Of a DNA stretch of 64,000 nucleotides, positions 29,438-46,144 are shown piece after piece. The stretch lies in contig NZ_QNUX01000002.1 of the NCBI RefSeq assembly GCF_003312425.1, positions 1 to 64,000 of the forward strand, read 5' to 3'. Both the position numbers and the translations under genes were made by a program. The notes under the pieces are model-generated. The model was not told where the DNA came from, searched no databases, and saw nothing but the letters and a program-made list of their open reading frames with translations. Within the stretch, counting starts at the first letter, position 1, and every line of letters starts with the position of its first letter. Origin of the DNA: Flavobacterium psychrolimnae. GTDB lineage: Bacteria > Bacteroidota > Bacteroidia > Flavobacteriales > Flavobacteriaceae.

Positions 29438-29470
29438 AAAAAGGTTCAACCCAAGTTGAACCTTTTTTTT
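29438..29470. terminator. Bidirectional terminator between ccsBA and the AraC-type gene
   Basis: AAAAAGGTTCAAC-CCAA-GTTGAACCTTTTT: a 13-bp stem with A and T runs on both flanks, placed between two convergent genes. Confidence 0.85.
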
Positions 29471-30641
29471 ATTCCTCAAAATCAGCTTTATTCATTTTAT
29501 AATATTCTAATGGAGATACACCTGCAATTTCTTTAAAGCTTGTAAAGAAAGGGTTGTACGAGGTAAACCCAACCTTTTTTGATAAAGAATCTAACGTGTT
29601 ATTTTTTAAATAGTTTTGTTCAATTTGATTGATGGCATCATGAATCCGAATTACTTTTTTATATTCAGAAAACGAGATTGTTGAGTGGTATTTAAATAAA
29701 TAGGAAAGATGACTTTTTGGAATTTTCAGGCTATTCGCTAAGTCTGAAATAGTCAGATTTGAATTTCTAAACAATTCAAATTTCAGTGAGATAGACTCAA
29801 TTTCCTTAATATAATCAATAATATTTGAATCTATTTTTTCTTTAAGAACTAAATGTTGGTTGTTATTTAATTGAATGTCAGTATTTTTTTTCCAAATATC
29901 ATTCAAGACTAAAGTATTATTTTTATTCTCATTAATCTTCTGGTGTAGTACATTATAACCGTAAAGAATTTCTGGAGAGCGTAATATTTTGAACAAAATG
30001 GTCAACCAAATCAATGCGGATATCCATTGATAACTGTGTCCTCTGATACTTTCATCAAAATATATTTCCTTTGAAATTGATATGAAAAGTCGGGATATCG
30101 TGAGTATTAGTCCAATAAATAAAAAAAGTGTCCAGTTATTTATTAACTTATTTTGTTTCTGAATCACTTTTATATCTCCTTTTCTAGTCCAAATAGTAGT
30201 TCTTAATAGTCGAAAACATAAAATTACATACGTAATGGCAAAAATAAAAAATATGCCATATATTATGATTTCTATTTGTTTTGAATTATAATCGAAATAA
30301 TCTCGATTGATAGTAACTAAAAATAGCGCTACGGGAAATATGAAATGTAAAAGCTCCTTTGAATTTAGTTTTCTGTTATTTTCAGATAAATTTTTAAAGT
30401 ACAGATAACAAATTGGGATTACTATCAGCGAAAAGTTTGAATATTTGAAATAAGTAGTTCTAAAATTGGAGTCGAAAACGAAATTGGTCAATCCGGATAA
30501 GAAAAAGCGTAAAGAAATAATAAGTATAAAAAGAATAATGTAAAGGTTCATTATTCTATTGGATTTATAATTTGTAAAAATTAAAAAAGTAGTTATTAAT
30601 CCAATTAATCCTGTAATTATGAAAAGTAAATTTGAAAGCAT
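29469..30641 (-). CDS. Membrane-anchored AraC-family transcriptional regulator
   Basis: 390 residues. The first ~235 contain about seven hydrophobic segments, and the C-terminal ~100 residues are an AraC DNA-binding domain with two helix-turn-helix units (NLTISDLANSLKIPKSHLSY and LDSLSKKVGFTSYNPFFTSF, then KEIAGVSPLEYYK). This seven-span plus AraC arrangement is frequent in flavobacteria and suggests a sensor that binds DNA from the membrane; signal and targets are unknown. It is convergent with ccsBA and divergent from the adhesin-like cluster, whose first gene it might control. Confidence 0.88.
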   Translation of the reverse strand: MLSNLLFIITGLIGLITTFLIFTNYKSNRIMNLYIILFILIISLRFFLSGLTNFVFDSNFRTTYFKYSNFSLIVIPICYLYFKNLSENNRKLNSKELLHFIFPVALFLVTINRDYFDYNSKQIEIIIYGIFFIFAITYVILCFRLLRTTIWTRKGDIKVIQKQNKLINNWTLFLFIGLILTISRLFISISKEIYFDESIRGHSYQWISALIWLTILFKILRSPEILYGYNVLHQKINENKNNTLVLNDIWKKNTDIQLNNNQHLVLKEKIDSNIIDYIKEIESISLKFELFRNSNLTISDLANSLKIPKSHLSYLFKYHSTISFSEYKKVIRIHDAINQIEQNYLKNNTLDSLSKKVGFTSYNPFFTSFKEIAGVSPLEYYKMNKADFEE

Positions 30642-30938: not shown

Positions 30939-31409
30939 ATGAGGTACTTACTTATATTTTTTACGGTCACCTTTCACGGACAAGTTTTGCACCATCAAAT
31001 GGTATCATCTCAAGGTACGTCCAAAATTTTGTCAAATGGAACGGTGATATCTCAAACAATCGGACAGCAAAGTCTCACTGGAACTTCAAACAAGTATTAT
31101 GTTGTGATGCAGGGTTTTCAACAAAGCTTTTGGGGAAACTATATTGCTTCTAATACAGTTGAAACAATCAAAACGACAACATTTCCTAATCCATTTGTTC
31201 AAACAGTGAACTTTGAATTTTCAAAAGTTATTACAGAAGAGATAGATATTAATGTATTTGATTTAGGCGGCCGTTTGGTATTTGAACAAAAGAAAAAAGC
31301 TGATAATTTAATTCTGACCATTACACTTCCTTTCTTGCCCAGCTCACAATATTTAGTTCGATTAAGCACCTCAAGTTTTACACATTTCACTAAAATCATC
31401 AAAATATGA
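30939..31409 (+). CDS. Secreted protein with type A T9SS C-terminal sorting domain
   Basis: Start at 30939 (MRYLLIFFTVTFHGQVL) gives 156 residues; in-frame codons upstream lack signal character. After the signal peptide comes a short module (HHQMVSSQGTSKILSNGTVI, then SQTIGQQSLTGTSN, VMQGFQQSFWG) that recurs in flavobacterial secreted proteins. The C-terminal ~75 residues are a type A sorting domain: TTFPNPFVQTVNFEFS, the INVFDLGGRLVFEQ strand and a final TKIIKI. Such tails direct export by the type IX system and attachment to the surface. It is the first gene of a cluster with a 2652- and a 1027-residue protein that lack such tails. Confidence 0.82.
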   Translation: MRYLLIFFTVTFHGQVLHHQMVSSQGTSKILSNGTVISQTIGQQSLTGTSNKYYVVMQGFQQSFWGNYIASNTVETIKTTTFPNPFVQTVNFEFSKVITEEIDINVFDLGGRLVFEQKKKADNLILTITLPFLPSSQYLVRLSTSSFTHFTKIIKI

Positions 31410-31714
31410 TAAAAAAATACTTTTTGTTTATTGCTCTTATCACAACTTGTCAAGTTTTTTCTAAAGGATTTTACCGGAATTTAGAAAATAATTTGAATGC
31501 TGATGTAACTCAAGCTTCATTTGGATTCCCAAATGTAAACACCTGTACTTTATTCATTAATTTTTATTATTTAGATCTAATAAATCCATTTAATCAGGTT
31601 AGATGTAATTCCTTTTTTTCTTGTTTTAATCATTTCTCAATAAAAAGTAATGATTTAATTCTGTTAGAATCGATCGGATCTACCACGTATTTAAGAAAAG
31701 GAATAAAGGCTTAA
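31406..31714 (+). CDS. Possible small secreted protein or decayed gene
   Basis: A 102-codon frame starts with ATG overlapping the stop of the T9SS gene (ATGA at 31406-31409). The first ~19 residues (MIKKYFLFIALITTCQVFS) are a good signal peptide, but the rest (e.g. NTCTLFINFYYLDLINPF) has no recognisable domain and low-quality composition. It could be a real short exported protein or the 5' remnant of a longer one that lost its frame. The overlap favours a once-functional operon partner. If it is not a gene, 31410-31839 is an empty gap. Confidence 0.35.
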   Translation: MIKKYFLFIALITTCQVFSKGFYRNLENNLNADVTQASFGFPNVNTCTLFINFYYLDLINPFNQVRCNSFFSCFNHFSIKSNDLILLESIGSTTYLRKGIKA

Positions 31715-31839
31715 CAATCCTTTAAGTTGTACATAGTATTCTTTTTTATAGAAACTAATATGTTATTTACAATTCCCAAGAAAATTTATCATTTACTCTA
31801 ATCGAATTTAGAATTCATTTCACTAAAAATTATTGAACC

Positions 31840-34800
31840 ATGAAAAAAATAATTTTACTTTTTATATTTTTTTTATGCGCTAAGAGTTTTGCGCAAACCA
31901 ATGGGATTACCTACCAAGCTTTAATTCTAAATCCAACAGAAGGAAAAGTATCAACTGCAACTAATACAAATTCACCTTTAGTGAGTAAGGATATTTGTAT
32001 GCTATTTAAATTTGTTGATGAGTTTTCAAATGTTGAATATCAGGAAGTTATTAGAACCAAAACAGACCCATACGGAATGGTTAACCTAATCATTGGAACT
32101 GGAACACAAACGGCTGGATATTCAACTTCTTTCGATAAAATTTCTTGGGATTCAGTACAAAAGAATTTGGTGGTTGGGATAAGTTTTACTGGAGACTGTT
32201 CTTCATTTACAGAAATTAGCAATCAACCTTTTAGTTCTGTTCCTTTTGCTTATTCATCAATAAATGCTGTGAATGTTACAGGTGTTGTGGCCTTAGAAAA
32301 TGGAGGTACAAATGCGACTACAGTACTTGGTGCTAAAACTAATTTGGGACTTGAAAATGTAGATAACACTACTGATTTGAATAAACCAATTAGTACTGCT
32401 TCAAAATTAGCATTGAATTTAAAAGAAGATACTATAAATAAAAGTACTAATGTAACTACAGATGGAAATTCAGATATTAAATACCCAACTGTAAAATCTG
32501 TTAAAAACTATGTAGATTCAAGTGTTTCCTTCAATTTATCAGGTTTGACCAATGAAATTTCCAGAGCGACTTTAGCAGAAAATGCTATTGCAGCGAATTT
32601 AGTTACGGAAACCGAAAGAGCAACTTTAGCGGAAACAAACAGCGCAACTGCAATAACTGCTGAAACAACTCGTGCGACTTTAGCGGAAGCTACTAAAGAA
32701 GATGCAGCAAATAAAAGTACAGATGGAAGTTTTGCTTCGAATTCAGATGTAAAATTCCCAACAGAAAAAGCGACTAAAACTTATGTTGATGCAACTGCTT
32801 CATCCAGTTCTTTGGCTTTGAACAATGAAATTTCCAGAGCGACTTTGGCGGAAAATGCTATTGCAGCGAATTTAGTTATGCAAACCGAAAGAGCAACTTT
32901 AGCGGAAACAACCAATACAACTGCAATTACTGCTGAGACAAATCGTGCAACTTTAGCGGAAGCTACTTTAACAACAAACTTTACTGCAGAAGTAAATCGC
33001 GCCACAACAGCTGAAGCTACTAAAGAAGATACAGCAAATAAAAGTACAGATGGAAGTTTTACTTCGAATTCAGATGTGAAATTCCCAACTGAAAAAGCTA
33101 CGAAAACCTATGTTGATGCATCTGCTTCATCCAATTCTTTGGCTTTGAACAATGAAATTTCAAGAGCGACTTTAGCAGAAAATAATATCGCAGCAAATTT
33201 GGTTTTAGAGACCGAAAGAGCAACTTTGGCGGAAACTACTTTATCAACGAACTTAATTGCTGAGACAAATCGTGCAACGATCGCTGAAGCGACTAAAGAA
33301 GACGCAGCAAATAAAAGTACAGATGGAAGTTTTACTTCGAATTCAGATGTGAAATTTCCAACCGAAAAAGCCACGAAAACCTATGTTGATGCAACTGCTT
33401 CATCCAATTCTTTTGCTTTAAACAATGAAATTTCGAGAGCGACTTTAGCGGAAAATACTATTGCAACGAATTTAACTTTAGAAACCGAAAGAGCAACTTT
33501 GGCGGAAACTACTTTAGCAACTAACTTGGCTGCTGAGACAAATCGTGCCACAACTGCAGAAGCGACTAAAGAAAATGCAATAAATAAAAGTATAGACGGA
33601 AGTTTTGCTTCGAATTCAGATGTGAAATTCCCAACTGAAAAAGCAACGAAAACCTATGTTGATGCATCTGCTTCTTCAAATTCTTTAGCTTTGAACAATG
33701 AAATTTCAAGAGCGACTTTAGCGGAAACAAACAACGCAACAGCTATAACTGCTGAAACAACTCGTGCGACTTTAGCGGAAGCTACATTAACAACAAACTT
33801 AACTGCTGAAGTAAATCGTGCCACAACTGCCGAAGCGACTAAAGAAAATTCCATAAATAAAAGTATAGACGGAAGTTTTGCTTCGAATTCAGATGTGAAA
33901 TTCCCAACTGAAAAAGCAACGAAAACCTATGTTGATGCAACTGCTTCATCAAATTCTTTAGCTTTAATCAATGAAATTTCCAGAGCAACTACAGCGGAAA
34001 ATACTATCGTTGCAAATTTGGTTTCAGAAACTGAAAGAGCGACTTTAGCCGAAGCTACAAACGCAACAGCAATAAATGCTGAAACAAATCGTGCGAATTT
34101 AGCGGAAACTACTTTGACAACAAACTTAACTGCTGAAGTAAATCGCGCCACGACCGCCGAAGCGACTAAAGAAGATGCAGCAAATAAAAGCACAGATGGA
34201 AGTTTTACTTTGAATTCAGATGTGAAATTCCCAACAGAAAAAGCAACGAAAACCTATGTTGATGCATCTGCTTCATCCAATTCTTTGGCTTTGACCAATG
34301 AAATTTCAAGAGCGACTTTAGCAGAAAATACTATCGCAGCAAATTTGGTTTCAGAAAACGAAAGAGCAACTTTAGCGGAAGCTACAAATGCAACGGCTAT
34401 AACTGCTGAAACTAATCGTGCAACTTTAGCTGAAACTACTTTATCGACTAATTTAAATGCTGAAGTAATCCGTGCCACAGCTGCCGAAGCGACCAAAGAA
34501 GATGCTGTAAATAAAAGTATAGACGGAAGTTTTGCTTCGAATTCAGATGTGAAATTCCCAACTGAAAAAGCTACGAAAACCTATGTTGATGCATCTGCTT
34601 CATCCAATTCTTTGGCTTTGAACAATGAAATTTCAAGAGCGACTTTAGCAGAAAATACTATCGCAGCAAATTTGGTTTCAGAAACTGAAAGAGCCACTTC
34701 TGCGGAAGCTAACAATGCCACAGCTATCACTGCTGAAACAAATCGCGCGACTTTGGCGGAAAATACTTTAACAACGAACCTAGCTGCAGAAGTAAATCGT

Positions 34801-37800
34801 GCAAAAACAGCAGAAGCAACTAAAGAAGATGCAGCAAATAAAAGTATTGATGGAAGTTTTACTTCAAATTCAGATGTGAAATTCCCAACCGAAAAAGCGA
34901 CTAAAACCTATGTTGACGCATCTTCTTCCTCCAATTCTTTGGCTTTAACCAATGAAGTTTCTAGAGCGACTTTAGTAGAGAATACTATCGCAGCGAATTT
35001 GGTTTTAGAAACTGAAAGAGCAACTTTAGCGGAAGCTTCAAATACAACTGCAATAACTACTGAAACTAATCGTGCGAATTTAGCAGAAACTACTCTAACA
35101 ACAAACTTAGCTGCAGAAGTAAATCGCGCCACAACTGCAGAAGCAACTAAAGAAGATTCAGTAAATAAAAGTACTGACGGAAGTTTTGCTTCGAATTCAG
35201 ATGTGAAATTCCCAACTGAAAAAGCGACTAAAACCTATGTTGATGCAACTGCTTCATCCAATTCTTTGGCTTTAACCAATGAAATTTCAAGAGCGACTTT
35301 AGCAGAAAATACTATCGCAGCAAATTTGGTTTCAGAAACTGAAAGAGCCACTTCTGCGGAAGCTAACAATGCCACAGCTATCACTGCCGAAACAAATCGT
35401 GCAACTTTAGCGGAAACTACATTAACAACAAACTTAACTGCAGAAGTAAACCGTGCCACAGTTGCCGAAACCTCTAAAGAAGATGCTGTAAATAAAAGTA
35501 CAGACGGAACCTTTACTTCAAATTCTGATGTGAAATTCCCAACCGAAAAAGCAACGAAAATGTATGTGGATGCGAGTGCTTCATCAAATTCTTTAGCTTT
35601 GACCAATGAAATTTCCAGAGCAACTTTAGCGGAAACAAACAACGCAACAGCTATAACTGCTGAAACAACTCGTGCAACTTTAGCGGAAGCTACTTTAACA
35701 ACAAACTTGACTGCAGAAGTAAATCGCGCCACAACAGCTGAAGCGACTAAAGAAGATGCAGTAAATAAAAGTACAGACGGAAGTTTTGTTGCAAATTCAG
35801 ATGTAAAGTTCCCAACCGAAAAAGCGACTAAAACCTATGTGGACGCGAGTGCTTCATCCAATTCTTTGGCTTTAACCAATGAAATCACTAGAGCAACTAC
35901 AGCGGAAAATATTATCGCAGCAAATTTGGTTTCAGAAACTGAAAGAGCAACTTTAGCGGAAACTTCCAACGCAACTGCAATCACTTCTGAAATAACTCGT
36001 GCAACTTTAGCGGAAACTACTTTAACAACAAACTTAACTGCTGAAGTAAACCGTGCCACAAGTTCAGAAGCGACTAAAGAAGATTCATCAAATAAAAGTA
36101 CAGACGGAAGTTTTGCTTCAAATTCAGATGTGAAATTTCCAACTGAAAAAGCAACTAAAACGTATGTTGATGCAACTGCTTCATCCAATTCTTTAGCTTT
36201 GACCAATGAAATTTCAAGAGCAACTTTAGCGGAAAATACTATCGCAGCAAATTTGGTTTCAGAAACTGAAAGAGCTACTTCGGCGGAAGCTAACAATGCC
36301 ATAGCAATCACTGCCGAAACAAATCGTGCGACTTTAGCGGAATCTACTTTAACAACAAACTTAACTGCAGAAGTAAATCGTGCTACAACCGCCGAAGCAA
36401 CCAAAGAAGATACAATAAATAAAAGTACTGATGGAAGTTTTACTTCAAATTCTGATGTGAAATTCCCAACAGAAAAAGCAACTAAGACTTATGTGGATGC
36501 AAGTGCTTCATCCAATTCTTTAGCTTTGAACAATGAAATCATTAGAGCAACTACAGCAGAAAATACTATCGCAGCGAATTTGGTTTCAGAAACCGAAAGA
36601 GCAACTTTGGCGGAAGCTACTTCATCAACGAATTTAACTGCTGAAACAAATCGTGCAACTTTAGCGGAAGCTACATTAGCAACAAACTTAGCTGCAGAAG
36701 TAAATCGCGCCACGATCGCAGAAGCGACTAAAGAAGATGCAGCAAATAAAAGCACAGACGGAAGTTTCACTTCAAATTCAGATGTGAAATTCCCAACTGA
36801 AAAAGCGACTAAAACGTATGTTGATGTGAGCGCTTCATCCAGTTCTTTGGCTTTGACCAATGAAATTTCGAGAGCAACTACAGCGGAAAATAATATCGCA
36901 GCAAATTTGGTTTTAGAAACTGAAAGAGCAACTTTAGCCGAAGCTACAAACGCAACTGCTATAACTGCTGAAACAACTCGTGCGACTTTAGCGGAAGCTA
37001 CATTAACAACAAACTTAACTGCAGAAGTAAATCGTGCTACGACCTCAGAAGCAACTAAAGAAGATGCAGCAAATAAAAGTACTGACGGAAGTTTTACTTC
37101 GAATTCTGATGTGAAATTCCCAACCGAAAAAGCTACGAAAACCTATGTTGACGCTTCTGCCTCCTCCAATTCTTTGGCTTTGACCAATGAAATTTCAAGA
37201 GCAACTTTAGCAGAAAATACTATCGCAGCAAATTTGGTTTTAGAAACTGAAAGAGCAACTTTAGCGGAAGCTACAAATGCAACGGCAATAACTGCTGAAA
37301 CAAATCGTGCAACTTTAGCGGAAGCTACATTATCAACGAATTTAACTGCTGAAACAAATCGTGCGACTTTAGCAGAAAATACTTTATCAACTAACTTAAC
37401 TGCAGAAGTAAATCGCGCCACAGCTGCCGAAGCGACTAAAGAAGATGCAGCAAATAAAAGTACAGACGCAACCTTTACTTCGAATTCAGATGTGAAATTC
37501 CCAACTGAAAAAGCGACTAAAACCTATGTGGATGCAAGCGCTTCATCTAATTCTTTGGCTTTAACTAATGAAATTTCAAGAGCGACTTTAGCGGAAAATG
37601 CTATTGCAGCGAATTTAGTTACGGAAACCGAAAGAGCAACTTTATCGGAAACAAACAACGCAACAGCAATAACTTCTGAAACAAATCGTGCGACTTTGGC
37701 GGAAACAAACAACGCAACTGCAATAACTGCTGAAACAACTCGTGCGACTTTAGCGGAAGCTACTAAAGAAGATGCAGCAAATAAAAGCACAGACGGAAGT

Positions 37801-39798
37801 TTTACTTCGAATTCAGATGTGAAATTCCCAACTGAAAAAGCGACTAAAACCTATGTTGACGCATCTGCTTCATCCAATTCTTTAGCTTTAACCAATGAGA
37901 TTTCAAGAGCGACTTTGGCGGAAACTACAAATGCAACTGCAATTACTACGGAAGTAAACAGAGCAATTGTTGCTGAAGCAAAGAAAGAAGATGCTGTAAA
38001 TAAAAGTACAGACGGAAGTTTTACTTCAAATTCAGATGTGAAATTCCCAACCGAAAAAGCGACAAAAACATATGTGGACGCAAGTTCATCTTCAAATTCT
38101 TTGGCTTTAACGAATGAGATTTCCAGAGCAACTTTAGCGGAAAATACAATTGCTAGTAATTTGGTTATAGAAACCGAAAGAGCAACTTTGGCCGAAAATA
38201 CTTTAGCTACTAATTTGGACTTAAAAGCTAATTTGGCTTCCCCAAACTTTACAGGAACACCATCATTACCAACCGGAACAATTGCTGTAACACAATCTGC
38301 TGAAAATAATTCAACAGCTTTAGCAACTACTGCTTTCGTTACAGCTGCAAACGCAACAAATGCTAATTTAACTGGTGATGTTACAAGTATTGGAAACTTA
38401 ACCACTATTGCTACTAATGTAATAACAACTACTAAAATTGCTGATAGTAACATAACCAATGCTAAATTAGACAAAGCAAATATTCCTCTGAGTGGTTTTG
38501 GAGTAGCTGCTAGTGCTGTTGCTTTAGGCAATAATAAGTTAACAGAAGTAGCCGATCCAACAAATCCTCAAGATGCAGCTACTAAAAATTATGTAGACGC
38601 ATTAACTTCCATAGGTGTTACAGGGAACGGAACAACTAATTATATTCCAAAATTTTCTTCATCGCGTGCTTTAGCGAATAGTCTAATTTTTGATTCGGGA
38701 ACTCAAATAGGGATTGGAACTAATGCGCCTACTTCTTTGTTTCAAATAGGAGGTAATGGTTCAGGTGATAATCCACTTAAATATGACTATGATGGTGGAG
38801 GTAACGGCGCTTTGAAATTTGGTTTTAGACAATACGAATACAGAATAAAATCAAATCAGAATAGTGGCGTTTTAGAAAATTTGACATTTTCATATTATAA
38901 TCAAAGTACAGGAGTGGATAGTGATCGTTTTGTAATTGCAAATGATGGAATTTATATCCCAGGAAAATTAAATGTGACTGGCACCGTTAATGGAGGAGCA
39001 GCAACTTTATCCAGCTTAAACGTTAATAACAGTCAGTTTAATGTAAATAGTTCTACAAATACAATTGGATTTTTTACCGATAGTCCCACTTCTAAATTCC
39101 AAATTGGTGGTGATGGTAATTTTGATAATCCACTGAAATATGATTATGGATACGGGTCTGGTGAAGGAGCTTTAAAATTTGGTTTTAGACAAAATGAATT
39201 TAGAATTAAAACAAATCAAAACAGCGGAGTGTTAGAAAAACTGACTTTTTCATATTACAAAAATGCTGATGGTACTGATATTGAATCTATGCATATTGAT
39301 AACAACGGAGTGGTTTCTATTACTAAATTAGCGGTAACTGCAGGAAGTCCAGGAAATGGAAAAGTTCTTACTTCGGATGCCTTCGGTAATGCTAGTTGGG
39401 TTGCCCCTGTTGTTGCTTCAAGCAATGAGTTTGTTGACTTAACTACCACACAAACTATAGCTGGGGCAAAAACATTTAGTAGTACAGTTACTGGAAATTC
39501 TTTTGTGAAATCAGGAGGAACCTCAGCACAATATTTAATGGCAGATGGAACCGTTTCAACCGGTGCTGCTCCAGTACGTGAAGTTGCAGACGAAACATCT
39601 GCTGCAGCAAGTCAAAATAGTTTTACATTGACTCAAACTCCATCAATTAATAGTAAAGTAAAAATGTATGTTAATGGAATTAGAATCAGTAATGCTGCTT
39701 ATAGTGTAAGTGGAACAACATTAACCTATTTTCCAGCTAATAATGGTTCTTACATATTATCTGTTAATGATAGAGTTCAGTTTGATTATTTTTATTAA
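31840..39798 (+). CDS. Giant secreted repeat protein with phage-tail-fibre-like architecture
   Basis: 2652 residues. A signal peptide (MKKIILLFIFFLCAKSFA) is followed by a ~150-residue N-terminal domain (GITYQALILNPTEGK, then PFSSVPFAYSS). A tail-fibre linker comes next (NLGLENVDNTTDLNKPIS). Residues ~197-2127 are 19 repeats ending in NKSTDGSFTSNSDVKFPTEK plus a YVDA segment; the first is degenerate. The C-terminal ~500 residues include SPNFTGTPSLPTGT, PQDAATKNYVDA and two copies of a module starting FQIGG and containing LKFGFRQ. These are tail-fibre and tail-collar motifs, but the signal peptide and lack of other phage genes point to a surface fibre or adhesin. No T9SS tail is seen; the protein ends in NDRVQFDYFY. 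Likely transcribed with the next gene (25-base gap). Confidence 0.85.
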   Translation: MKKIILLFIFFLCAKSFAQTNGITYQALILNPTEGKVSTATNTNSPLVSKDICMLFKFVDEFSNVEYQEVIRTKTDPYGMVNLIIGTGTQTAGYSTSFDKISWDSVQKNLVVGISFTGDCSSFTEISNQPFSSVPFAYSSINAVNVTGVVALENGGTNATTVLGAKTNLGLENVDNTTDLNKPISTASKLALNLKEDTINKSTNVTTDGNSDIKYPTVKSVKNYVDSSVSFNLSGLTNEISRATLAENAIAANLVTETERATLAETNSATAITAETTRATLAEATKEDAANKSTDGSFASNSDVKFPTEKATKTYVDATASSSSLALNNEISRATLAENAIAANLVMQTERATLAETTNTTAITAETNRATLAEATLTTNFTAEVNRATTAEATKEDTANKSTDGSFTSNSDVKFPTEKATKTYVDASASSNSLALNNEISRATLAENNIAANLVLETERATLAETTLSTNLIAETNRATIAEATKEDAANKSTDGSFTSNSDVKFPTEKATKTYVDATASSNSFALNNEISRATLAENTIATNLTLETERATLAETTLATNLAAETNRATTAEATKENAINKSIDGSFASNSDVKFPTEKATKTYVDASASSNSLALNNEISRATLAETNNATAITAETTRATLAEATLTTNLTAEVNRATTAEATKENSINKSIDGSFASNSDVKFPTEKATKTYVDATASSNSLALINEISRATTAENTIVANLVSETERATLAEATNATAINAETNRANLAETTLTTNLTAEVNRATTAEATKEDAANKSTDGSFTLNSDVKFPTEKATKTYVDASASSNSLALTNEISRATLAENTIAANLVSENERATLAEATNATAITAETNRATLAETTLSTNLNAEVIRATAAEATKEDAVNKSIDGSFASNSDVKFPTEKATKTYVDASASSNSLALNNEISRATLAENTIAANLVSETERATSAEANNATAITAETNRATLAENTLTTNLAAEVNRAKTAEATKEDAANKSIDGSFTSNSDVKFPTEKATKTYVDASSSSNSLALTNEVSRATLVENTIAANLVLETERATLAEASNTTAITTETNRANLAETTLTTNLAAEVNRATTAEATKEDSVNKSTDGSFASNSDVKFPTEKATKTYVDATASSNSLALTNEISRATLAENTIAANLVSETERATSAEANNATAITAETNRATLAETTLTTNLTAEVNRATVAETSKEDAVNKSTDGTFTSNSDVKFPTEKATKMYVDASASSNSLALTNEISRATLAETNNATAITAETTRATLAEATLTTNLTAEVNRATTAEATKEDAVNKSTDGSFVANSDVKFPTEKATKTYVDASASSNSLALTNEITRATTAENIIAANLVSETERATLAETSNATAITSEITRATLAETTLTTNLTAEVNRATSSEATKEDSSNKSTDGSFASNSDVKFPTEKATKTYVDATASSNSLALTNEISRATLAENTIAANLVSETERATSAEANNAIAITAETNRATLAESTLTTNLTAEVNRATTAEATKEDTINKSTDGSFTSNSDVKFPTEKATKTYVDASASSNSLALNNEIIRATTAENTIAANLVSETERATLAEATSSTNLTAETNRATLAEATLATNLAAEVNRATIAEATKEDAANKSTDGSFTSNSDVKFPTEKATKTYVDVSASSSSLALTNEISRATTAENNIAANLVLETERATLAEATNATAITAETTRATLAEATLTTNLTAEVNRATTSEATKEDAANKSTDGSFTSNSDVKFPTEKATKTYVDASASSNSLALTNEISRATLAENTIAANLVLETERATLAEATNATAITAETNRATLAEATLSTNLTAETNRATLAENTLSTNLTAEVNRATAAEATKEDAANKSTDATFTSNSDVKFPTEKATKTYVDASASSNSLALTNEISRATLAENAIAANLVTETERATLSETNNATAITSETNRATLAETNNATAITAETTRATLAEATKEDAANKSTDGSFTSNSDVKFPTEKATKTYVDASASSNSLALTNEISRATLAETTNATAITTEVNRAIVAEAKKEDAVNKSTDGSFTSNSDVKFPTEKATKTYVDASSSSNSLALTNEISRATLAENTIASNLVIETERATLAENTLATNLDLKANLASPNFTGTPSLPTGTIAVTQSAENNSTALATTAFVTAANATNANLTGDVTSIGNLTTIATNVITTTKIADSNITNAKLDKANIPLSGFGVAASAVALGNNKLTEVADPTNPQDAATKNYVDALTSIGVTGNGTTNYIPKFSSSRALANSLIFDSGTQIGIGTNAPTSLFQIGGNGSGDNPLKYDYDGGGNGALKFGFRQYEYRIKSNQNSGVLENLTFSYYNQSTGVDSDRFVIANDGIYIPGKLNVTGTVNGGAATLSSLNVNNSQFNVNSSTNTIGFFTDSPTSKFQIGGDGNFDNPLKYDYGYGSGEGALKFGFRQNEFRIKTNQNSGVLEKLTFSYYKNADGTDIESMHIDNNGVVSITKLAVTAGSPGNGKVLTSDAFGNASWVAPVVASSNEFVDLTTTQTIAGAKTFSSTVTGNSFVKSGGTSAQYLMADGTVSTGAAPVREVADETSAAASQNSFTLTQTPSINSKVKMYVNGIRISNAAYSVSGTTLTYFPANNGSYILSVNDRVQFDYFY
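32562..38220 (+). repeat. Two-level tandem repeat array inside the giant fibre gene
   Basis: The YVDA-type anchor motif recurs at about 32781, 33111, 33381, 33657, 33927, 34257, 34587, 34911, 35238, 35567, 35838, 36168, 36495, 36816, 37146, 37527, 37857 and 38076. Distances fall into classes near 219, 270-276, 321-330 and 381 bases. These match 2, 3, 4 or 5 copies of a ~54-base (18-residue) submodule of the type ERATLAEATNATAITAET. Nucleotide identity between units is high, so unequal recombination can add or remove either level. Confidence 0.85.
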
Positions 39799-39823
39799 TA
39801 GTGACTTCTAAAAAAGTTATATC

Positions 39824-42800
39824 ATGAAGTTTTATAAAAAAATAGTTTTCTTTTTTTTGATTGTTGCTACTTTAGAAGTTTATGCTCAAAACACGCTAGA
39901 CAATTTAGGGCTTACTAGCGCTACACCAGCGGCTGGAGCTTATAGTTTGAGGAAATTAAGCAGCTCTTACGCTGGTAGTGCCGTACAGGTAAGACGAAGT
40001 ACAGACAATACCACTCAGGATATTGGTTTTGATGGTAATGGAGATTTAAACACGGCTGCTTTATTGACTTTTGTTGGTGCAAATAATGGTTTCGTGACTA
40101 TTTGGTACGATCAAAGTGGGAATGCAAGGAATTTGATTAAAACCGATTATAATCTTCAACCACAAATAGTATTTAACGGAGCGTTCAAATACATTGGAAC
40201 TAAAGTGGCGATTGATTTTTCAGGAAATAAGGGACTGGTTTATTCGGGTTCATTAATTTTAGCAAGTATTACTAGTGTTATAAGATCAGAAAGTACTAGT
40301 TGGCCAAGTTATCATACTATTCTTGAGGGAAGTCCAAGAATAGGAGGGATATTAGAAACTGGAGGGACAACATTTCATTCTAACGTTTATCCACTTGCAA
40401 TATGGAAAAATGGGATTTCGAAAACAACTGCTGAATCCCTTACTCCTGTTAATGAAGGTATGGTTTTATCCATAAGTTCTCGAACGGATAACTTAAATAA
40501 AATCTTTATAGGTAATTACGATGGAGGTGGAAGTGGAGGTTCCATTTTAGAAAGTGAAGCCATCGGATTTTCTACTTTAAATGCGAATAATATTCGGGAA
40601 TCAATAGAATGTAATCAAGGTACTTATTTTGGAATTTCAATGACATTATGTGCTACTGCAATACTGAAAAATCCTGCTTCTTCAATTCAAAACACATGTA
40701 TGGGGGCAACGGCAATTCCATTGACAGTTCAGGCTTCAGGAAAAAATATAACGTATCAATGGTACAGTAATTCCAGTCCAAGCGCAACTGGAGGAACTTT
40801 AATTAATGGTGCTATTACTAATACTTTTACTCCGCCAACATCTGTTAGCGGGACAACGTATTATTATGTTGTTGTTTCCGATTTACAAGGAACTACAATT
40901 ACTAGCGGTATTTCTGGAGCAATAATAGTAGAGAATTTAACTGCAATAACTGTTACACCATCAGCTGTAAGCATTAATTCAGGAGACTCAATTACTCTTA
41001 CTGCATCAGGAGCGAGTACTTATTTGTGGGGTACAGGTATAACAACGCCATTGGACCAAGTTGCAAGTTGTAAACTTGCTGTTGGTTTGCGTTTACTTAG
41101 GACTGAATATACAGGACCTGCAGTTCGTTTGAGACGTGCGAGCGACAATGTAGAAGCTGATTTTGGATTTACACTTACGGATTTAAATACAGCAGCGATA
41201 TCTTCTTGGTTGGGTATGTCAGCAGGATATTGTGTTAAACTTTATGATCAATCAGGTAATGGGAATGATATGGTTCCACCATCTGTAAATGCGCAACCAC
41301 TTTATGTTTATAATGGATTGAATGCTAAACCGATTTTGAGATTTAATACTGCACAAAGTATAAAAAATAATATCAATTTCACACCACCATACACAGTAGT
41401 TTATGGTGCAAAACAGACAGGTCCAAGTAGAGGTCGTGTTTTAAATGCAAATAATAACTGGTTGCTTGGTTGGTGGAATGGAAGTAAAAGTCAAGCTCAC
41501 TATGACGGTTGGGTTTCTAGAGATGGAAACACTACGGCTGATAACAACGCATATGTATACACTGCGACGGGAACTGGAAGTGCCTCAAGAATTTTTGAAA
41601 ATGGGATTTCTAAAACTTTAAATACCAATGGAGGATTGAACGGTCCAAATGGATTAAGAATAAATGAAAGTGAACCTTCAGACGCTGATGTGGCAGATAT
41701 ATTTGTATTTAATTCCGTGTTATCAGACAATAATAGGGAAAAAATCGAACAAAGTACCGCTTCTTATTACGGTATTTATGGACAACCAATGGTACCGGGA
41801 CAAACATTTACAGTTACTCCAACAGAAACTACTACTTATCAAGTTACGGGTTATTCTGCTAATGAAGGCTGTTCTGTTTCTAGTAGTGTGACTGTAACCG
41901 TACTAAAAAATCCAAATTTAGGTAATTTTAATTCACAAATAAAAACGTATTTTGATGGTTCTTATACAATTTCACCACCAAGTACCAGTAGTACGGACGC
42001 TATTAGTTATGCAAGTAGTAATACTGCTGTAGCAACTATCATTGGTACAACAGTAACAATTGTAGGAGCGGGAAGCACCACAATTACCGCTACTCAAGCA
42101 GCTAATTCGACTCATTATGGTGATTCTATAAGTGCTACTTTGACAGTAAATGCGGTTTCTGTTTTAACAAAAAATGGACAAGTTTCTACAACTGATTTCA
42201 ATTATGTTAATAAAAATGGGGCTATAAGGAGTGATTTTGGGGTTAATAAAAATGGGCTCTCTATTCAAACAAAATCTTATGATTTATTAACTGGTTTGGT
42301 AATGAATTTAGATGCTGGTAATCTAGCCAGCTACCTGGGAACTGGAACTACTTGGACCGACTTAAGTGGTTTGGGAAATAATGGAATATTAGTAAATAAC
42401 CCTGTTTATAATTCTTCTAATGGAGGTAACCTTGTGTTTAATGGATCCAATACTTATGTAGATGCCCCGCTTACAAAAACTGCATCATGTACATTCTCAG
42501 TATGGACTAAATCGACTTCTGCAAGCAATATGTTATTTAATGCGGGTAATGATGGTTCTGGTCCAGATTTATTTTTTTACGGCGGGGTTCTCAGTTGGAA
42601 TACTTGGGACAGCTCTAATAATCCTTTTGGAAATATACCTGCTACGGCAGCAAATGGTAATTGGCATAATTATGTGGTGGTTAACGATGCTGTGTCTAAT
42701 ACTGCAAGATTGTATTATGACGGCGTACTTTATGGAACAGCTGGCTACAGAAACGCCTCTGCAAATACTAAATTATATATAGGAGGCTCTAATGGTGGGT

Positions 42801-42907
42801 GGCAATGGAATGGTGCAATTGGGAATTTCCAAGTTTATAATAGAATTTTAAGCCCGGCGGAGATCATTCAAAACTTTAACAATCTTAAAACAAGGTACGG
42901 CTTGTAG
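39824..42907 (+). CDS. Large secreted protein with two arabinofuranosidase-B-like domains and a LamG-like end
   Basis: 1027 residues with signal peptide (first ~21, ending VYAQ). Two modules of the arabinofuranosidase-B catalytic-like fold are visible: residues ~30-270 (GAYSLRKLSSSYAGSAVQVR, then WYDQSGNARNL) and ~415-655 (VGLRLLRTEYTGPAVRLR, then LYDQSGNGNDM). Between and after them are Ig-like regions (ITYQWYSNSSPSATGG; ITVTPSAVSINSGDSITLTA). The C-terminal ~180 residues are a LamG/concanavalin-like domain (MNLDAGNLASYLGTG, FSVWTKSTS, GAIGNFQVYNRILSPAEI). Such modules bind or hydrolyse glycans; a binding role fits better because the fold appears as repeated carriers. No T9SS sorting tail is present. 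Confidence 0.8.
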   Translation: MKFYKKIVFFFLIVATLEVYAQNTLDNLGLTSATPAAGAYSLRKLSSSYAGSAVQVRRSTDNTTQDIGFDGNGDLNTAALLTFVGANNGFVTIWYDQSGNARNLIKTDYNLQPQIVFNGAFKYIGTKVAIDFSGNKGLVYSGSLILASITSVIRSESTSWPSYHTILEGSPRIGGILETGGTTFHSNVYPLAIWKNGISKTTAESLTPVNEGMVLSISSRTDNLNKIFIGNYDGGGSGGSILESEAIGFSTLNANNIRESIECNQGTYFGISMTLCATAILKNPASSIQNTCMGATAIPLTVQASGKNITYQWYSNSSPSATGGTLINGAITNTFTPPTSVSGTTYYYVVVSDLQGTTITSGISGAIIVENLTAITVTPSAVSINSGDSITLTASGASTYLWGTGITTPLDQVASCKLAVGLRLLRTEYTGPAVRLRRASDNVEADFGFTLTDLNTAAISSWLGMSAGYCVKLYDQSGNGNDMVPPSVNAQPLYVYNGLNAKPILRFNTAQSIKNNINFTPPYTVVYGAKQTGPSRGRVLNANNNWLLGWWNGSKSQAHYDGWVSRDGNTTADNNAYVYTATGTGSASRIFENGISKTLNTNGGLNGPNGLRINESEPSDADVADIFVFNSVLSDNNREKIEQSTASYYGIYGQPMVPGQTFTVTPTETTTYQVTGYSANEGCSVSSSVTVTVLKNPNLGNFNSQIKTYFDGSYTISPPSTSSTDAISYASSNTAVATIIGTTVTIVGAGSTTITATQAANSTHYGDSISATLTVNAVSVLTKNGQVSTTDFNYVNKNGAIRSDFGVNKNGLSIQTKSYDLLTGLVMNLDAGNLASYLGTGTTWTDLSGLGNNGILVNNPVYNSSNGGNLVFNGSNTYVDAPLTKTASCTFSVWTKSTSASNMLFNAGNDGSGPDLFFYGGVLSWNTWDSSNNPFGNIPATAANGNWHNYVVVNDAVSNTARLYYDGVLYGTAGYRNASANTKLYIGGSNGGWQWNGAIGNFQVYNRILSPAEIIQNFNNLKTRYGL

Positions 42908-43220: not shown

Positions 43221-44006
43221 TTATACTTTTCCTAACGTATATAATTGTTCCATTGTAGGAGTCAAACTTCCTCCTTTAGGCTCAAGTGTAATTCCAAAAG
43301 CTTCAGCTTCATTGGCATTATTCACTGCAAATAATTTTTGCTCATTTACATCAAAGTCTTCTAATAATCCAATGCTGGTTGGAGTCAACGGGCTTAATTT
43401 TAAAGCCCAAACCTGATACACCATTCCTTCCGGTGGTTCAGGTAAACCTGCTGCATCTATATAGACAACCTTGGTCTCTTGATTCCAATACACTTTAGCC
43501 GAAGATTCGGGAGCAACTGCTTGTCCACCAAGAGCTACAACCGTATTTTTAATGTCTCTGACAACCGCTAAACTTGTTTCGTTAGCCGCATTTTTTAATT
43601 TCAAGACATTAAACTCTTTTTCTAGTTTTGCTTTTTCAATTTCAGTATTAGCCACTTGCGTTGATGTTTGGTTCAACTGATTGTATTGGTATCCAATACC
43701 TACCAATAATAACACAGCTGCTGCCCATCCAATGTATTGAGACCTGTTTTTACGAGGTTCTAATTGAATGACTTCGGCATGTTTCAGCTCTAATTTCTCT
43801 TTAATTTTTTCGAAATTAGCTACCGAATGAAATGGTGAAAAGCTAGATGATAGTGCAACAATCGCTTTTTCAATAGCTATAATTTCAGCATTTATTTCCG
43901 GGTTATTTTTTGCCATAGCTGTAACTTCTTCGTTTTCGTTTTCACTTAATAAACCGTAAACATAAAGTTCCAGAATTCCTGATTCAATATATTCTTTTGT
44001 TTCCAT
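43221..44006 (-). CDS. Anti-sigma factor (RskA-like)
   Basis: 261 residues. The N-terminal ~80 residues are a zinc-less anti-sigma domain (YIESGILELYVYGLLSENEN, then EVTAMAKNNPEI). One membrane span lies at ~residues 92-106 (YIGWAAAVLLLVGIGY), followed by a coiled-coil stretch. The C-terminal periplasmic RskA domain contains PPEGMVYQVWAL and FGITLEPKGGSLTPT. It would hold the ECF sigma factor at the membrane until an envelope signal releases it. Its start overlaps the sigma stop (TAATG), so the pair is translationally coupled. Confidence 0.9.
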   Translation of the reverse strand: METKEYIESGILELYVYGLLSENENEEVTAMAKNNPEINAEIIAIEKAIVALSSSFSPFHSVANFEKIKEKLELKHAEVIQLEPRKNRSQYIGWAAAVLLLVGIGYQYNQLNQTSTQVANTEIEKAKLEKEFNVLKLKNAANETSLAVVRDIKNTVVALGGQAVAPESSAKVYWNQETKVVYIDAAGLPEPPEGMVYQVWALKLSPLTPTSIGLLEDFDVNEQKLFAVNNANEAEAFGITLEPKGGSLTPTMEQLYTLGKV

Positions 44007-44536
44007 TATACTTTCAAATAATTTCGTAGATCGTTAATACAATTTCTATTTTGCGTTTTTACCGTTCCTAAAGGAATTGCCAATTCGTCCGAAGCTTCCT
44101 GTTGGGTATAGCCTTTGAAAAACAGTAAATCAATTATTTGAATACATTTTGGTTTCAGTCTTTTTACAAATTCCTGTAAACCTATAGTATCCACTTTGTC
44201 CGACAGTTTCGAACTGTCTTCAAAGTGATTTACGAAATTATCAGTAGAAAGGTTTTTTTGACTGTTATTAAAATTCTTAGAACGCAGTTTATCAATAGAA
44301 GTATTTCGGGCAATATTCAGTATCCAAGTATAAAATCTTCCTTTGCTTTCATGGTAGGAATCAATGTTTTTCCAGATTTTAACAAATACTTCCTGTAGCA
44401 CGTCTTCGGCCTCTTCTCTATTTTTTACAAGAACATTAATTACCGAAAATAAACTTTTGGAATACATATCATAGAGATGTGTAAATGCTCTTTCGTCTTT
44501 CTTGTAAATTAATACTAATAATTCTTCTTGACTCAT
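44006..44536 (-). CDS. ECF-type RNA polymerase sigma factor
   Basis: 176 residues. Region 2 (EERAFTHLYDMYSKSLFSVI, then DVLQEVFVKIWKNI, RFYTWILNIARNTSIDKLR) and region 4 (CIQIIDLLFFKGYTQQEASD, IPLGTVKTQNRNCINDLR) are clear; no region 1 or 3. It directs RNA polymerase to a small regulon under control of the coupled anti-sigma factor. It is divergent from the DUF4331 genes with a 220-base gap, which suggests it controls that cluster and perhaps itself; TAAGTTTG on the minus strand at 44559-44566 is a candidate -7 box of housekeeping type. Confidence 0.93.
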   Translation of the reverse strand: MSQEELLVLIYKKDERAFTHLYDMYSKSLFSVINVLVKNREEAEDVLQEVFVKIWKNIDSYHESKGRFYTWILNIARNTSIDKLRSKNFNNSQKNLSTDNFVNHFEDSSKLSDKVDTIGLQEFVKRLKPKCIQIIDLLFFKGYTQQEASDELAIPLGTVKTQNRNCINDLRNYLKV

Positions 44537-44757: not shown

Positions 44758-45411
44758 ATGAAAAAAACAAAAATGCTTTTAGGTCTGTCGCTAGTGGCGG
44801 TTTCGGGCTTAATTTTAGTAGCAGCGGATCACATTGATGCACCGGCTACAATGTCAGGAGACGCAGGTGATATTACAGATGTTTATGCTTTTCAAGGGCA
44901 AAACACAAGTAATTTAGTATTTGCAGTAAACACTCAAGGATTGTTAAGTCCTAATGCTACTGGTGCTGCCACATTCAAAGATAATGTGATGGTGGAAATA
45001 AACATTGACAATAATGGTGACAATGTTGAAGATTTAGTGATTCAGGCAATTAAGAGAGACGACAAAATGTATTTCTTTGGACCTGTAGCTCCAGGAACAA
45101 CTGGAACTTCAAGTACCGTTAAAACTGCAGCAGCCTCAGGAAGTGTTACTATATCTAAATATGGTACAGCAGCTTTGACAGCAGAACAAAACGGAATGAA
45201 ATTTTTCGCAGGACCAAGAGACGATCCCTTCTTTTTTGATTTAGGTCGCTTTCAAGCAATTCTTGGCGGAACAGCTACAGGATTTAATAATCCGGGGACA
45301 GACACATTTGCAGGTACTAATGTAATGTCTATAGTTGTTGAAGTTCCAAAATCAATGTTGGGTTCATCAAGTACTGTTGGTGTTTGGGCTGAAACTAAGA
45401 AAAAACAATAA
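44758..45411 (+). CDS. DUF4331 family protein, N-terminal half
   Basis: 217 residues with a signal peptide (first ~22) and the DUF4331 hallmark ADHIDAPATMSGDAGDITDV right after it. VYAFQGQN, VEINIDNNGDN and the FFAGPRDDPFFFDLGRF motif follow. These correspond to the first part of the longer single-chain DUF4331 proteins known from other phyla; the matching second part is encoded by the next gene. Function unknown; members are exported. It starts the transcript divergent from the sigma factor. Confidence 0.85.
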   Translation: MKKTKMLLGLSLVAVSGLILVAADHIDAPATMSGDAGDITDVYAFQGQNTSNLVFAVNTQGLLSPNATGAATFKDNVMVEINIDNNGDNVEDLVIQAIKRDDKMYFFGPVAPGTTGTSSTVKTAAASGSVTISKYGTAALTAEQNGMKFFAGPRDDPFFFDLGRFQAILGGTATGFNNPGTDTFAGTNVMSIVVEVPKSMLGSSSTVGVWAETKKKQ

Positions 45412-45440
45412 TTAAATTTATTTAAAAAAAGCAAAAACAT

Positions 45441-45463
45441 GAAATCGAAGATTTTTGATTTCG
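45441..45463 (+). other. Hairpin between the two DUF4331 genes
   Basis: GAAATC...GATTTC with a ~10-base loop lies in the 76-base gap, followed by A-rich sequence. It lacks a T tract, so it is more likely an mRNA-stabilising or processing element than a terminator. Confidence 0.3.
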
Positions 45464-45487
45464 AAAAAATTTTAAAATATAAACATC

Positions 45488-46042
45488 ATGAGTAAAACAA
45501 ATAAATTCAAAATTATAACAATCGCACTAGTAGCTGCAGTTGTTTCAGTAAATTGTGATAATGACGATTCAAACGGTGATTCTAGTGTAAGCCTTGATTT
45601 TTCAGGCACTTATGTTCAGCAAGATCAAATGGCGAGACCAGCAATCAATACAGTATTCGTTGCTTCAGGACAACCTAAAGATGATTTCAATGCTGCCATT
45701 CCATCAGCAATGGGAGCTAAATACCAATCTATTTTTCAATCCAGATTATTGGCTTTGAATCCTGCATATACTACAAATGCTTTAGGACAAACTGCCGCGC
45801 AGCTTACAGGTCTTTTAGCTACAGATGTATTAGGAGTGTCTAAAACTGCACCAACAACTTTCTTTGACGGAACTAATGTTTTGACAGGAAGAGCTTTGGC
45901 AGATGACGTAATAGATGTTGAATTATTATTGATTTTTGGAGGACCAATGGGAACTTCTAATCCAGGTCTGACTAAAGATAATGTAAATGCAAATGATAAG
46001 GCATTTGGAACAACTTTCCCTTACCTAGCTTCTGCTTGGTAG
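45488..46042 (+). CDS. DUF4331 family lipoprotein, C-terminal half
   Basis: 184 residues. A hydrophobic N-terminus ends at Cys23 followed by DNDD, which suggests a lipoprotein, though the lipobox (SVNC) is not canonical. The body shows the second half of DUF4331: QQDQMARPAINTVFVASGQP (compare RMGNPLVNE-type segments) and GRALADDVIDVELLLIFGG. With the previous gene it covers the domain that is one chain elsewhere, so the two proteins probably associate. A terminator follows at 46059-46098. Confidence 0.8.
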   Translation: MSKTNKFKIITIALVAAVVSVNCDNDDSNGDSSVSLDFSGTYVQQDQMARPAINTVFVASGQPKDDFNAAIPSAMGAKYQSIFQSRLLALNPAYTTNALGQTAAQLTGLLATDVLGVSKTAPTTFFDGTNVLTGRALADDVIDVELLLIFGGPMGTSNPGLTKDNVNANDKAFGTTFPYLASAW

Positions 46043-46102: not shown

Positions 46103-46130
46103 AAACAAACAAACAAACAAACAAACAAAC
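46103..46130 (+). repeat. (AAAC)7 tetranucleotide tract upstream of the TPR lipoprotein
   Basis: Seven perfect AAAC units fill the space between the terminator and the start codon at 46145. The tract ends 14 bases before the ATG. Tetranucleotide tracts in this position can change length by slippage and so alter promoter spacing or translation initiation. Confidence 0.8.
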
Positions 46131-46144
46131 AAAATAATTAGAGT

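Follow-up and report, generated by a model that had tools for sequence, protein, structure and literature searches.

A putative surface-fibre locus with exchangeable ends and a T9SS-sorted companion in Flavobacterium psychrolimnae and relatives

What is a giant protein built like a phage tail fibre doing in a bacterial chromosome, next to a small protein sorted to the cell surface? The question is raised by a locus at 30939-42907 of the window, by which we mean the whole stretch of 64,000 nucleotides that was analysed (positions 1 to 64,000 of contig NZ_QNUX01000002.1, assembly GCF_003312425.1, of Flavobacterium psychrolimnae). A sequence-only reading had noted three open reading frames (ORFs) at this site, for a short protein sorted by the type IX secretion system (T9SS) and here called TS, for the fibre protein (FIB) and for a large partner. 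All three exist, with the coordinates and lengths given below; the remnant of a barrel gene (OMP) between the first two had been omitted. CTD stands for C-terminal domain.

30939..31409, + strand: TS, small T9SS-sorted protein, 156 amino acids (aa); PF18962 (Por_Secre_tail), E 9.4e-9
31406..31714, + strand: decayed OMP remnant, 102 codons, overlapping the TS stop by 4 nt
31840..39798, + strand: FIB, fibre protein, 2652 aa, Sec signal peptide by inspection
31840..32289, + strand: FIB signal peptide and conserved N-terminal beta-sandwich base, residues 1-150, from the alignment of relatives
32710..38259, + strand: FIB repeat shaft, 18-residue helical-type repeats alternating with 55-residue steps
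39571..39795, + strand: FIB C-terminal tip of the 'KMYVNGIRISN...DRVQFDYFY' type
39824..42907, + strand: partner, 1027 aa, signal peptide by inspection, no T9SS CTD found

We consider it somewhat probable that the product of the locus is a surface fibre whose binding end can be exchanged and whose display is assisted by the T9SS; judged by domain content and evolution, an adhesin or contact fibre would be its best reading. The observations behind this answer are a linked gene set, purifying selection on TS and on the FIB base, co-variation of fibre tip and partner, and the swap of an end module. The earlier remark that no counterpart had been described agrees with a literature search, judged by titles and abstract openings and with thin coverage of subscription journals and bioRxiv, in which the gene set was not found.

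Relatives were collected with a profile of the base domain, which gave 194 coding matches in named genomes; the best 80 were kept and represent 79 distinct loci, which are not independent, as some genomes contribute two or three. According to their record titles these are largely from Flavobacterium, with others from Pedobacter, Crocinitomicaceae and other Bacteroidota. They are labelled here with L-numbers, and the names of metagenome-assembled genomes among them may be wrong. TS lies no more than 1.3 kb upstream of FIB in 75 of the 79 loci. In many relatives an outer-membrane-barrel-like gene of about 205 aa, OMP, sits between the two, and it is intact (at least 180 aa) in 58. The survey for a common three-gene order that the sequence-only reading had proposed thus bears out the succession of TS and FIB, while the third gene of that order is variable and OMP is the better-conserved third partner. 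The spacing of the genes makes a single operon likely: of 56 TS-OMP pairs 44 share exactly 4 nt, and OMP is set apart from FIB by -4 to 20 nt in 55 of 58 cases.

The same linkage is found in a set of 150 genomes of the genus, own genome included. The first 196 residues of FIB match in 59 of them at E up to 1e-3, many of these matches being weak, and the OMP profile matches in 26. Barrel matches occupy 37 rows, equal to 36 matches after two pieces of one gene were joined; 34 lie within 1 kb of FIB, and of the remaining two, one is in the same cluster 6 kb off and the other is weak and solitary. The conserved motif of TS that precedes its CTD matches 46 times, 39 of them within 2 kb of FIB. This position of most OMP and TS-motif matches shows dedication of both to the FIB locus. 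Where FIB matches strongly (E up to 2.9e-19), TS accompanies it in 39 of 41 cases (own included) and OMP in 34 of 40 (own excluded). A search across the phylum, in which most matches were weak, places the base domain in 29 of 139 genera (52 of 296 genomes) and so marks it as broadly distributed in Bacteroidota.

Both constant members of the set are under purifying selection, with omega values, in pairs including the window, of 0.10-0.19 for the FIB base and 0.12-0.17 for TS. The OMP remnant behaves differently between pairs: omega is 0.99 between the window and L058 and 0.19 between L059 and L073, the latter suggesting that some members of the clade may still retain the remnant. That it derives from OMP is indicated by tblastn of relatives' OMP against this stretch of the window (480 bases), where the best match (E 1.6e-9) covers the N-terminal 60 residues or so. 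Searches of the own genome, one at E up to 1 and one by profile, gave no other OMP copy. The same 102-codon remnant occurs in L058, L059 and L073, its frame staying open in the last two (L059:9560-9868 and L073:9570-9878), where it may have become a new short secreted protein; in L057 OMP is broken by stops and a frameshift. One could therefore ask whether the whole locus is decaying and non-functional in the window species. The near-neutral remnant, the broken OMP of L057 and a fibre split in L069 would fit such a view, against which stand an 8-kb repeat ORF without a stop and the low omega of TS and the FIB base in the window pairs, and we hold this explanation to be quite unlikely.

The ends of the fibre vary far more than its base. 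Fibre tips, taken as the last 90 residues, and downstream proteins were clustered separately by single linkage. Twenty of 49 loci, counting the window, carry the window's tip type (cluster 0). The tip groups and the partner groups coincide: 174 locus pairs fall together in both groupings, while 2000 shuffles, which ignore relatedness, gave 54 on average and never more than 111. When tip labels were placed on a tree of the base domain (49 rows, 14 unlike tips being lumped as 'other' and cluster 1 split by partner type), 18 changes were needed, where 6 would be the least possible and shuffled labels needed 25.3 on average; inheritance therefore accounts for part of the tip distribution, and exchange has been frequent. 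The tip labelled 'FGE' is an example, with six loci in Flavobacterium, Pedobacter and Crocinitomicaceae and five changes on the base tree, and with a single partner cluster (485-498 aa) in all six; these partners are presumably the six downstream proteins that match FGE-sulfatase.

The window's partner carries a comparable trace of exchange at its end. It is composed of the following modules.

39890..40678, + strand: module 1, like the N-terminal part of GH54 (profile match to 1wd3/2d43 residues 12-86)
40682..40876, + strand: Ig_7 domain (PF19081, E 2.1e-7)
41024..41809, + strand: module 2, belonging with module 1 to one family (30% identity when aligned)
42269..42904, + strand: terminal LamG/ConA-like module, horizontally exchanged by the comparisons below

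Compared with the near relative L073, the partner is 62-90% identical up to residue 800 and 18-26% beyond, whereas compared with L090 of Pedobacter cryophilus it is 19-68% identical up to residue 700 and 62-88% beyond. In 50-residue windows the terminal module is 76-88% identical to L090 and, at the corresponding positions, 18-31% to the near relatives L073 and L069, the end of L073 being unrelated; at the DNA level the window and L090 share 77.6% identity over 987 aligned bases. This reversal of identity points to horizontal exchange of the end module between families, with the swap placed at about residue 800.

The LamG end had been recognised in the sequence-only reading, which had further described duplicated arabinofuranosidase-like modules. 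Two related modules are indeed present; the match of a profile built on them and related modules to the GH54 enzyme AbfB (E 2.8e-9) is limited to residues 12-86, and the catalytic residues of AbfB presumably lie beyond residue 86, leaving a catalytic role of the window partner unsupported. No Pfam arabinofuranosidase hit was obtained for this protein at E up to 1, and arabinofuranosidase function was set aside as unsupported beyond about 75 residues. Among 39 downstream proteins scanned, one other than the window's matches PF09206 (E 1.6e-15). These 39 include ordinary neighbours (e.g. glutathione peroxidase, n=3) that are probably not partners; domains seen in the downstream proteins of other loci are FGE-sulfatase, Laminin_G_3, Fibrinogen_C, Beta_helix and ALK_LTK_GRD. 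The window partner has a weak Big_2 match under the cut-off and one match in its own genome.

The shaft of FIB consists of 18 units, 17 of which are measurable because another unit follows, and these are 73, 91, 109 or 127 residues long, i.e. 55+18k. Between residues 291 and 2140 there are 65 'RA[TNIK]' anchors, spaced by 18 (47 times) or 55 (17 times) residues and by no other distance, and the 55-residue steps contain NKSTDG...FPTEKATKTYVD. The array is far beyond chance (Tandem Repeats Finder scores up to 2778). The tail-fibre-like build noted earlier is apparent from matches of the shaft to phrog_13589 (E 1.3e-79, 14 stretches) and to the tail-fibre family phrog_9851 (E 3.2e-19). No solved structure was found for the repeats or the tip region apart from one weak 32-residue tail-fibre match (E 0.0084), and no Pfam family on FIB exceeds the threshold. 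In the model of the base, residues 51-130 form an Ig-like sandwich of a common kind with a predicted local distance difference test (pLDDT) score of 84-95 in blocks; the mean of 72 for the whole model is due to the poorly predicted stretch past residue 133. The base has no Pfam match beyond noise (24 members scanned), no PDB relative by sequence and one match in its own genome. A named fold was sought for it and only generic Ig-like sandwiches were returned, i.e. GH2 sandwich domains, adhesin repeats and the PorU C-terminal domain, with best Foldseek E-values of 2.8e-3 (PDB) and 2.7e-3 (viral models) and VIA Z up to 7.1, rated by the tool as middling.

Among the named loci there are 48 complete fibre ORFs, 47 of which span 312 to 2711 aa; the remaining one, at 296 aa the shortest, is in L069 and covers the first half of a fibre whose remainder is encoded by a second ORF. 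The C-termini of 49 fibres were scanned with Pfam, that of L069 being the end of the half fibre. YadA_head was found in four, collagen in one and Lcl_C in two. Two loci may be noted: in L124 (5947-13895) four FIB-type genes stand in tandem behind a single TS and a single barrel gene, and in L067 (8141-10561) the fibre joins a tail-fibre-like shaft to a collagen-like stretch, with no same-strand ORF within 400 nt downstream.

With such a shaft, a phage origin has to be weighed. Phage tail fibres have tail-fibre partner proteins and an exchangeable tip with a matched downstream protein. FIB resembles them in its repeat shaft, its 'NGGTNATT' linker and an exchangeable tip with a matched downstream protein; it differs by the Sec signal peptide, the host chromosomal context, the T9SS-sorted and barrel companions and a base that is absent from viral contigs. 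The locus could accordingly be seen as a prophage remnant or as the tail fibre of a contractile injection system. Besides the shaft matches, this explanation can draw on the partner, which matches the phage virion structural family phrog_10356 (E 4.6e-28), and on the FIB linker (residues 143-198), for which three Mycobacterium phages have minor tail proteins of about 62% identity. Phage records match FIB only in the stretch 92-198 (4 records) and the partner in parts (30 records), and the LamG region of the partner has hits in Synechococcus and Flavobacterium phages. Relatives of the FIB base were looked for in viral contigs, and none was found among 23 candidates. As that reading had stated, no phage genes are near: ten scanned neighbours held none, nor did the AraC, RskA and ECF (extracytoplasmic function) sigma genes, no search for injection-system genes having been made in the own genome. 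With the signal peptide and a chromosomal context conserved in relatives also opposed to it, we regard this explanation as very unlikely, and a prophage or phage origin was rejected on the grounds that phage tblastn, viral contigs and neighbours show shared modules only. The earlier view of a host surface system with borrowed tail-fibre architecture is therefore upheld in its first part, a host rather than a prophage system, by the shared context, the Sec-type N-termini and the lack of the base on viral contigs; its second part, a location at the surface, is probable by inference.

Two parts are distinguished within TS.

30984-31136, + strand: TS conserved segment preceding the CTD, residues 16-66
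about 31173-31406, + strand: TS type A CTD

That a short T9SS-sorted protein precedes the fibre, as had been proposed, is supported by PF18962 above its gathering score (35.9 bits, cut-off 27) and by TIGR04183 (37.8 bits, cut-off 23), both indicating a type A CTD. The own genome encodes the SprA translocon (TIGR04189, 2829.8 bits, cut-off 200). In the model of TS the CTD sandwich occupies about residues 79-155, with pLDDT above 90 from residue 81 on (ten-residue blocks). Its best fold match in the PDB is 8glk_D, a 75-residue chain of a T9SS NucA-substrate complex (E 1.3e-4), followed by a DUF3244 protein and, third, the mirolase CTD (E 7e-4). The part ahead of the CTD is of low confidence (mean pLDDT 50-72 per ten-residue block, residues 11-60) yet highly conserved, and at E up to 1e-5 its motif occurs once in the own genome, at this locus. 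A segment that is conserved without apparently folding alone suggests a binding peptide. Type A CTDs lead to static surface anchoring or release with PorV as the shuttle, according to PMC12618676. OMP is less well characterised by homology, since PF13505 (OMP_b-brl) matches in 5 of 15 scanned relatives' proteins at E up to 0.1 (best 8.6e-11) and no PDB relative was found by sequence (best E 0.35).

From these parts a mechanism may be proposed. Sec would export all parts, FIB included. FIB would then trimerise through its 18-residue repeats, its N-terminal sandwich staying at the outer membrane, and the T9SS would take to the surface TS, which carries the type A signal that FIB and the partner lack. 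The apparently unfolded segment of TS would probably bind the FIB base (or the barrel), either as an escort across the outer membrane or as a surface clamp. The barrel of about 205 aa, where kept, may be an accessory anchor or pore, lost in the window lineage. The shaft would project the tip, the variable tip would hold the matching partner, and the lectin-like end of the partner (LamG here, other domains elsewhere) would bind glycans or other cells.

The boldest version of this scheme, in which TS acts in trans through its pre-CTD segment and the T9SS thereby exports or anchors a trimeric fibre devoid of a CTD, is put forward tentatively, and we think it doubtful, if possible. It would allow one signal per fibre and a universal base accepting any grafted tip. 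We found no precedent for T9SS export in trans, and six such terms are all absent from a review of T9SS effectors (PMC10202324). This lack of precedent speaks for a different arrangement, in which FIB surfaces by its own route, using the barrel or some further outer-membrane machinery, while TS is a small surface protein in its own right that has no more than the operon in common with FIB, e.g. a cap or decoy; OMP, where present, is linked to FIB as tightly as TS. However, TS is the more constant of the two (75 against 58 of the 79 loci), and it persists where OMP has decayed or is absent. In Pedobacter OMP is absent and TS and FIB are kept in three of four loci (L086, L090 and L131; not L105), and the window is a further case. 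TS thus appears as the constant companion and OMP as an accessory, not essential everywhere. An own route for FIB is a possibility that we likewise rate as doubtful.

FIB might also be a periplasmic or envelope-spanning structural protein and no surface adhesin at all. It has a Sec signal, and no T9SS CTD was found on it, nor in the Pfam matches of the 49 fibre C-termini or the 39 downstream proteins; two of the 49 relatives end in an OmpA domain. Fibres of 2000-2700 aa would probably be too long for the periplasm, however, and the lectin-type, often-swapped ends and partners and the near-constant linkage to a surface-sorted protein do not fit such a role, which we take to be unlikely.

Several observations weigh against the surface-fibre reading and should be kept in mind. 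Neither FIB nor its partner has a recognised outer-membrane export signal. The strongest of them is the OmpA domain that ends the fibre in L063 and L076, and by eye in a third locus (L037), a domain that is normally periplasmic. FIB persists in the window clade and in the three Pedobacter loci where OMP is decayed or absent. Seven of the 46 TS-motif matches have no FIB nearby, several of them at contig ends. The shuffle test of tips and partners takes no account of relatedness, and the pair tests in which relatedness was kept are too small for significance: 5 of 5 independent pairs agreed (p 0.0625) and the window's tip type gave a mean of 3.6 of 6 with none opposite (p 0.125). Single loci also break the pairing, L075 and L077 having the window's tip type with a different partner and L101 and L105 its partner cluster with a different tip.

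Known surface systems offer partial likenesses. Lcl, the Legionella collagen-like adhesin, is a trimeric surface adhesin that binds glycosaminoglycans and has a C-terminal glycan-binding head and a variable repeat number, as described in PMC11162425. The exported trimeric shaft, presumed for FIB, is common to both and Lcl_C ends two of the 49 fibres, and by this analogy Lcl may be the nearest experimental precedent for the outer half of the proposed fibre. In contrast, Lcl is a substrate of the type II secretion system with a collagen shaft, FIB has tail-fibre repeats and T9SS-sorted and barrel-like neighbours, and the window tip is not Lcl_C. Trimeric autotransporter adhesins (YadA, type Vc secretion system) have a similarly long repetitive shaft, and YadA_head repeats occur in the four fibre ends mentioned above; in the FIB family, by contrast, the conserved base lies at the N-terminus and any barrel is encoded by a gene of its own, and no YadA anchor barrel was seen in the Pfam matches of the 49 fibre ends or of FIB. 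SprB/SprF and other adhesin-shuttle pairs with type B CTDs, which the same genus possesses, likewise combine a giant surface protein with an adjacent outer-membrane protein dedicated to it (PMC12618676). FIB, however, lacks a CTD and SprB repeats, the barrel is of about 205 aa and OMP_b-brl-like instead of PorP/SprF, and the CTD is on a separate 156-aa protein. A SprB-type adhesin was rejected as an identity for FIB, which has no PF13573 hit; PF13573 matches elsewhere in the genome (C19).

If the surface-fibre reading is right, Flavobacterium and its relatives would own a modular surface fibre with a fixed base and exchangeable ends, beyond the known T9SS adhesins and autotransporters, and the T9SS would have a route to handle signal-less proteins. 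It would also explain large Bacteroidota proteins that are likely misread as phage tail fibres, and tip swaps across families would make the ligands of the fibre a testable ecological trait.

Upstream of the locus and divergent from it lies one further gene of possible relevance.

29469..30641, - strand: AraC-type transcription regulator, 390 aa (HTH_18, E 1.1e-9)

It is a candidate regulator of the locus; homologues are found in 41 of the 79 named loci and a divergent gene of AraC size in 46. The upstream neighbours scanned are ccsBA-type cytochrome c assembly, DUF2520, HAD, UbiA, Maf and MscS genes, and those scanned downstream are two DUF4331 ORFs, a TPR protein and a TonB-dependent receptor. 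Some of this housekeeping context is common to relatives, with ccsBA in 29 of the 79 loci, RskA/ECF sigma in 17 and both in 13, counts that are lower bounds since each locus was limited to 10 kb or by a contig end. In the window the anti-sigma/ECF sigma pair is at 43221-44536 and adjoins the DUF4331 pair, two adjoining ORFs (44758-46042) that match separate parts of DUF4331, with best stretches at positions 134-238 and 368-420. A perfect tandem repeat, (AAAC)7.8, at 46103-46133 stops 11 bases short of the TPR-protein ORF (46145-47440) and is a candidate for a slipped-strand switch. The minus-strand ORF 5242-7023 also contains, in its 3' portion (C-terminal in the protein) at 5275-5461, tandem repeats of 21 bp and 63 bp.

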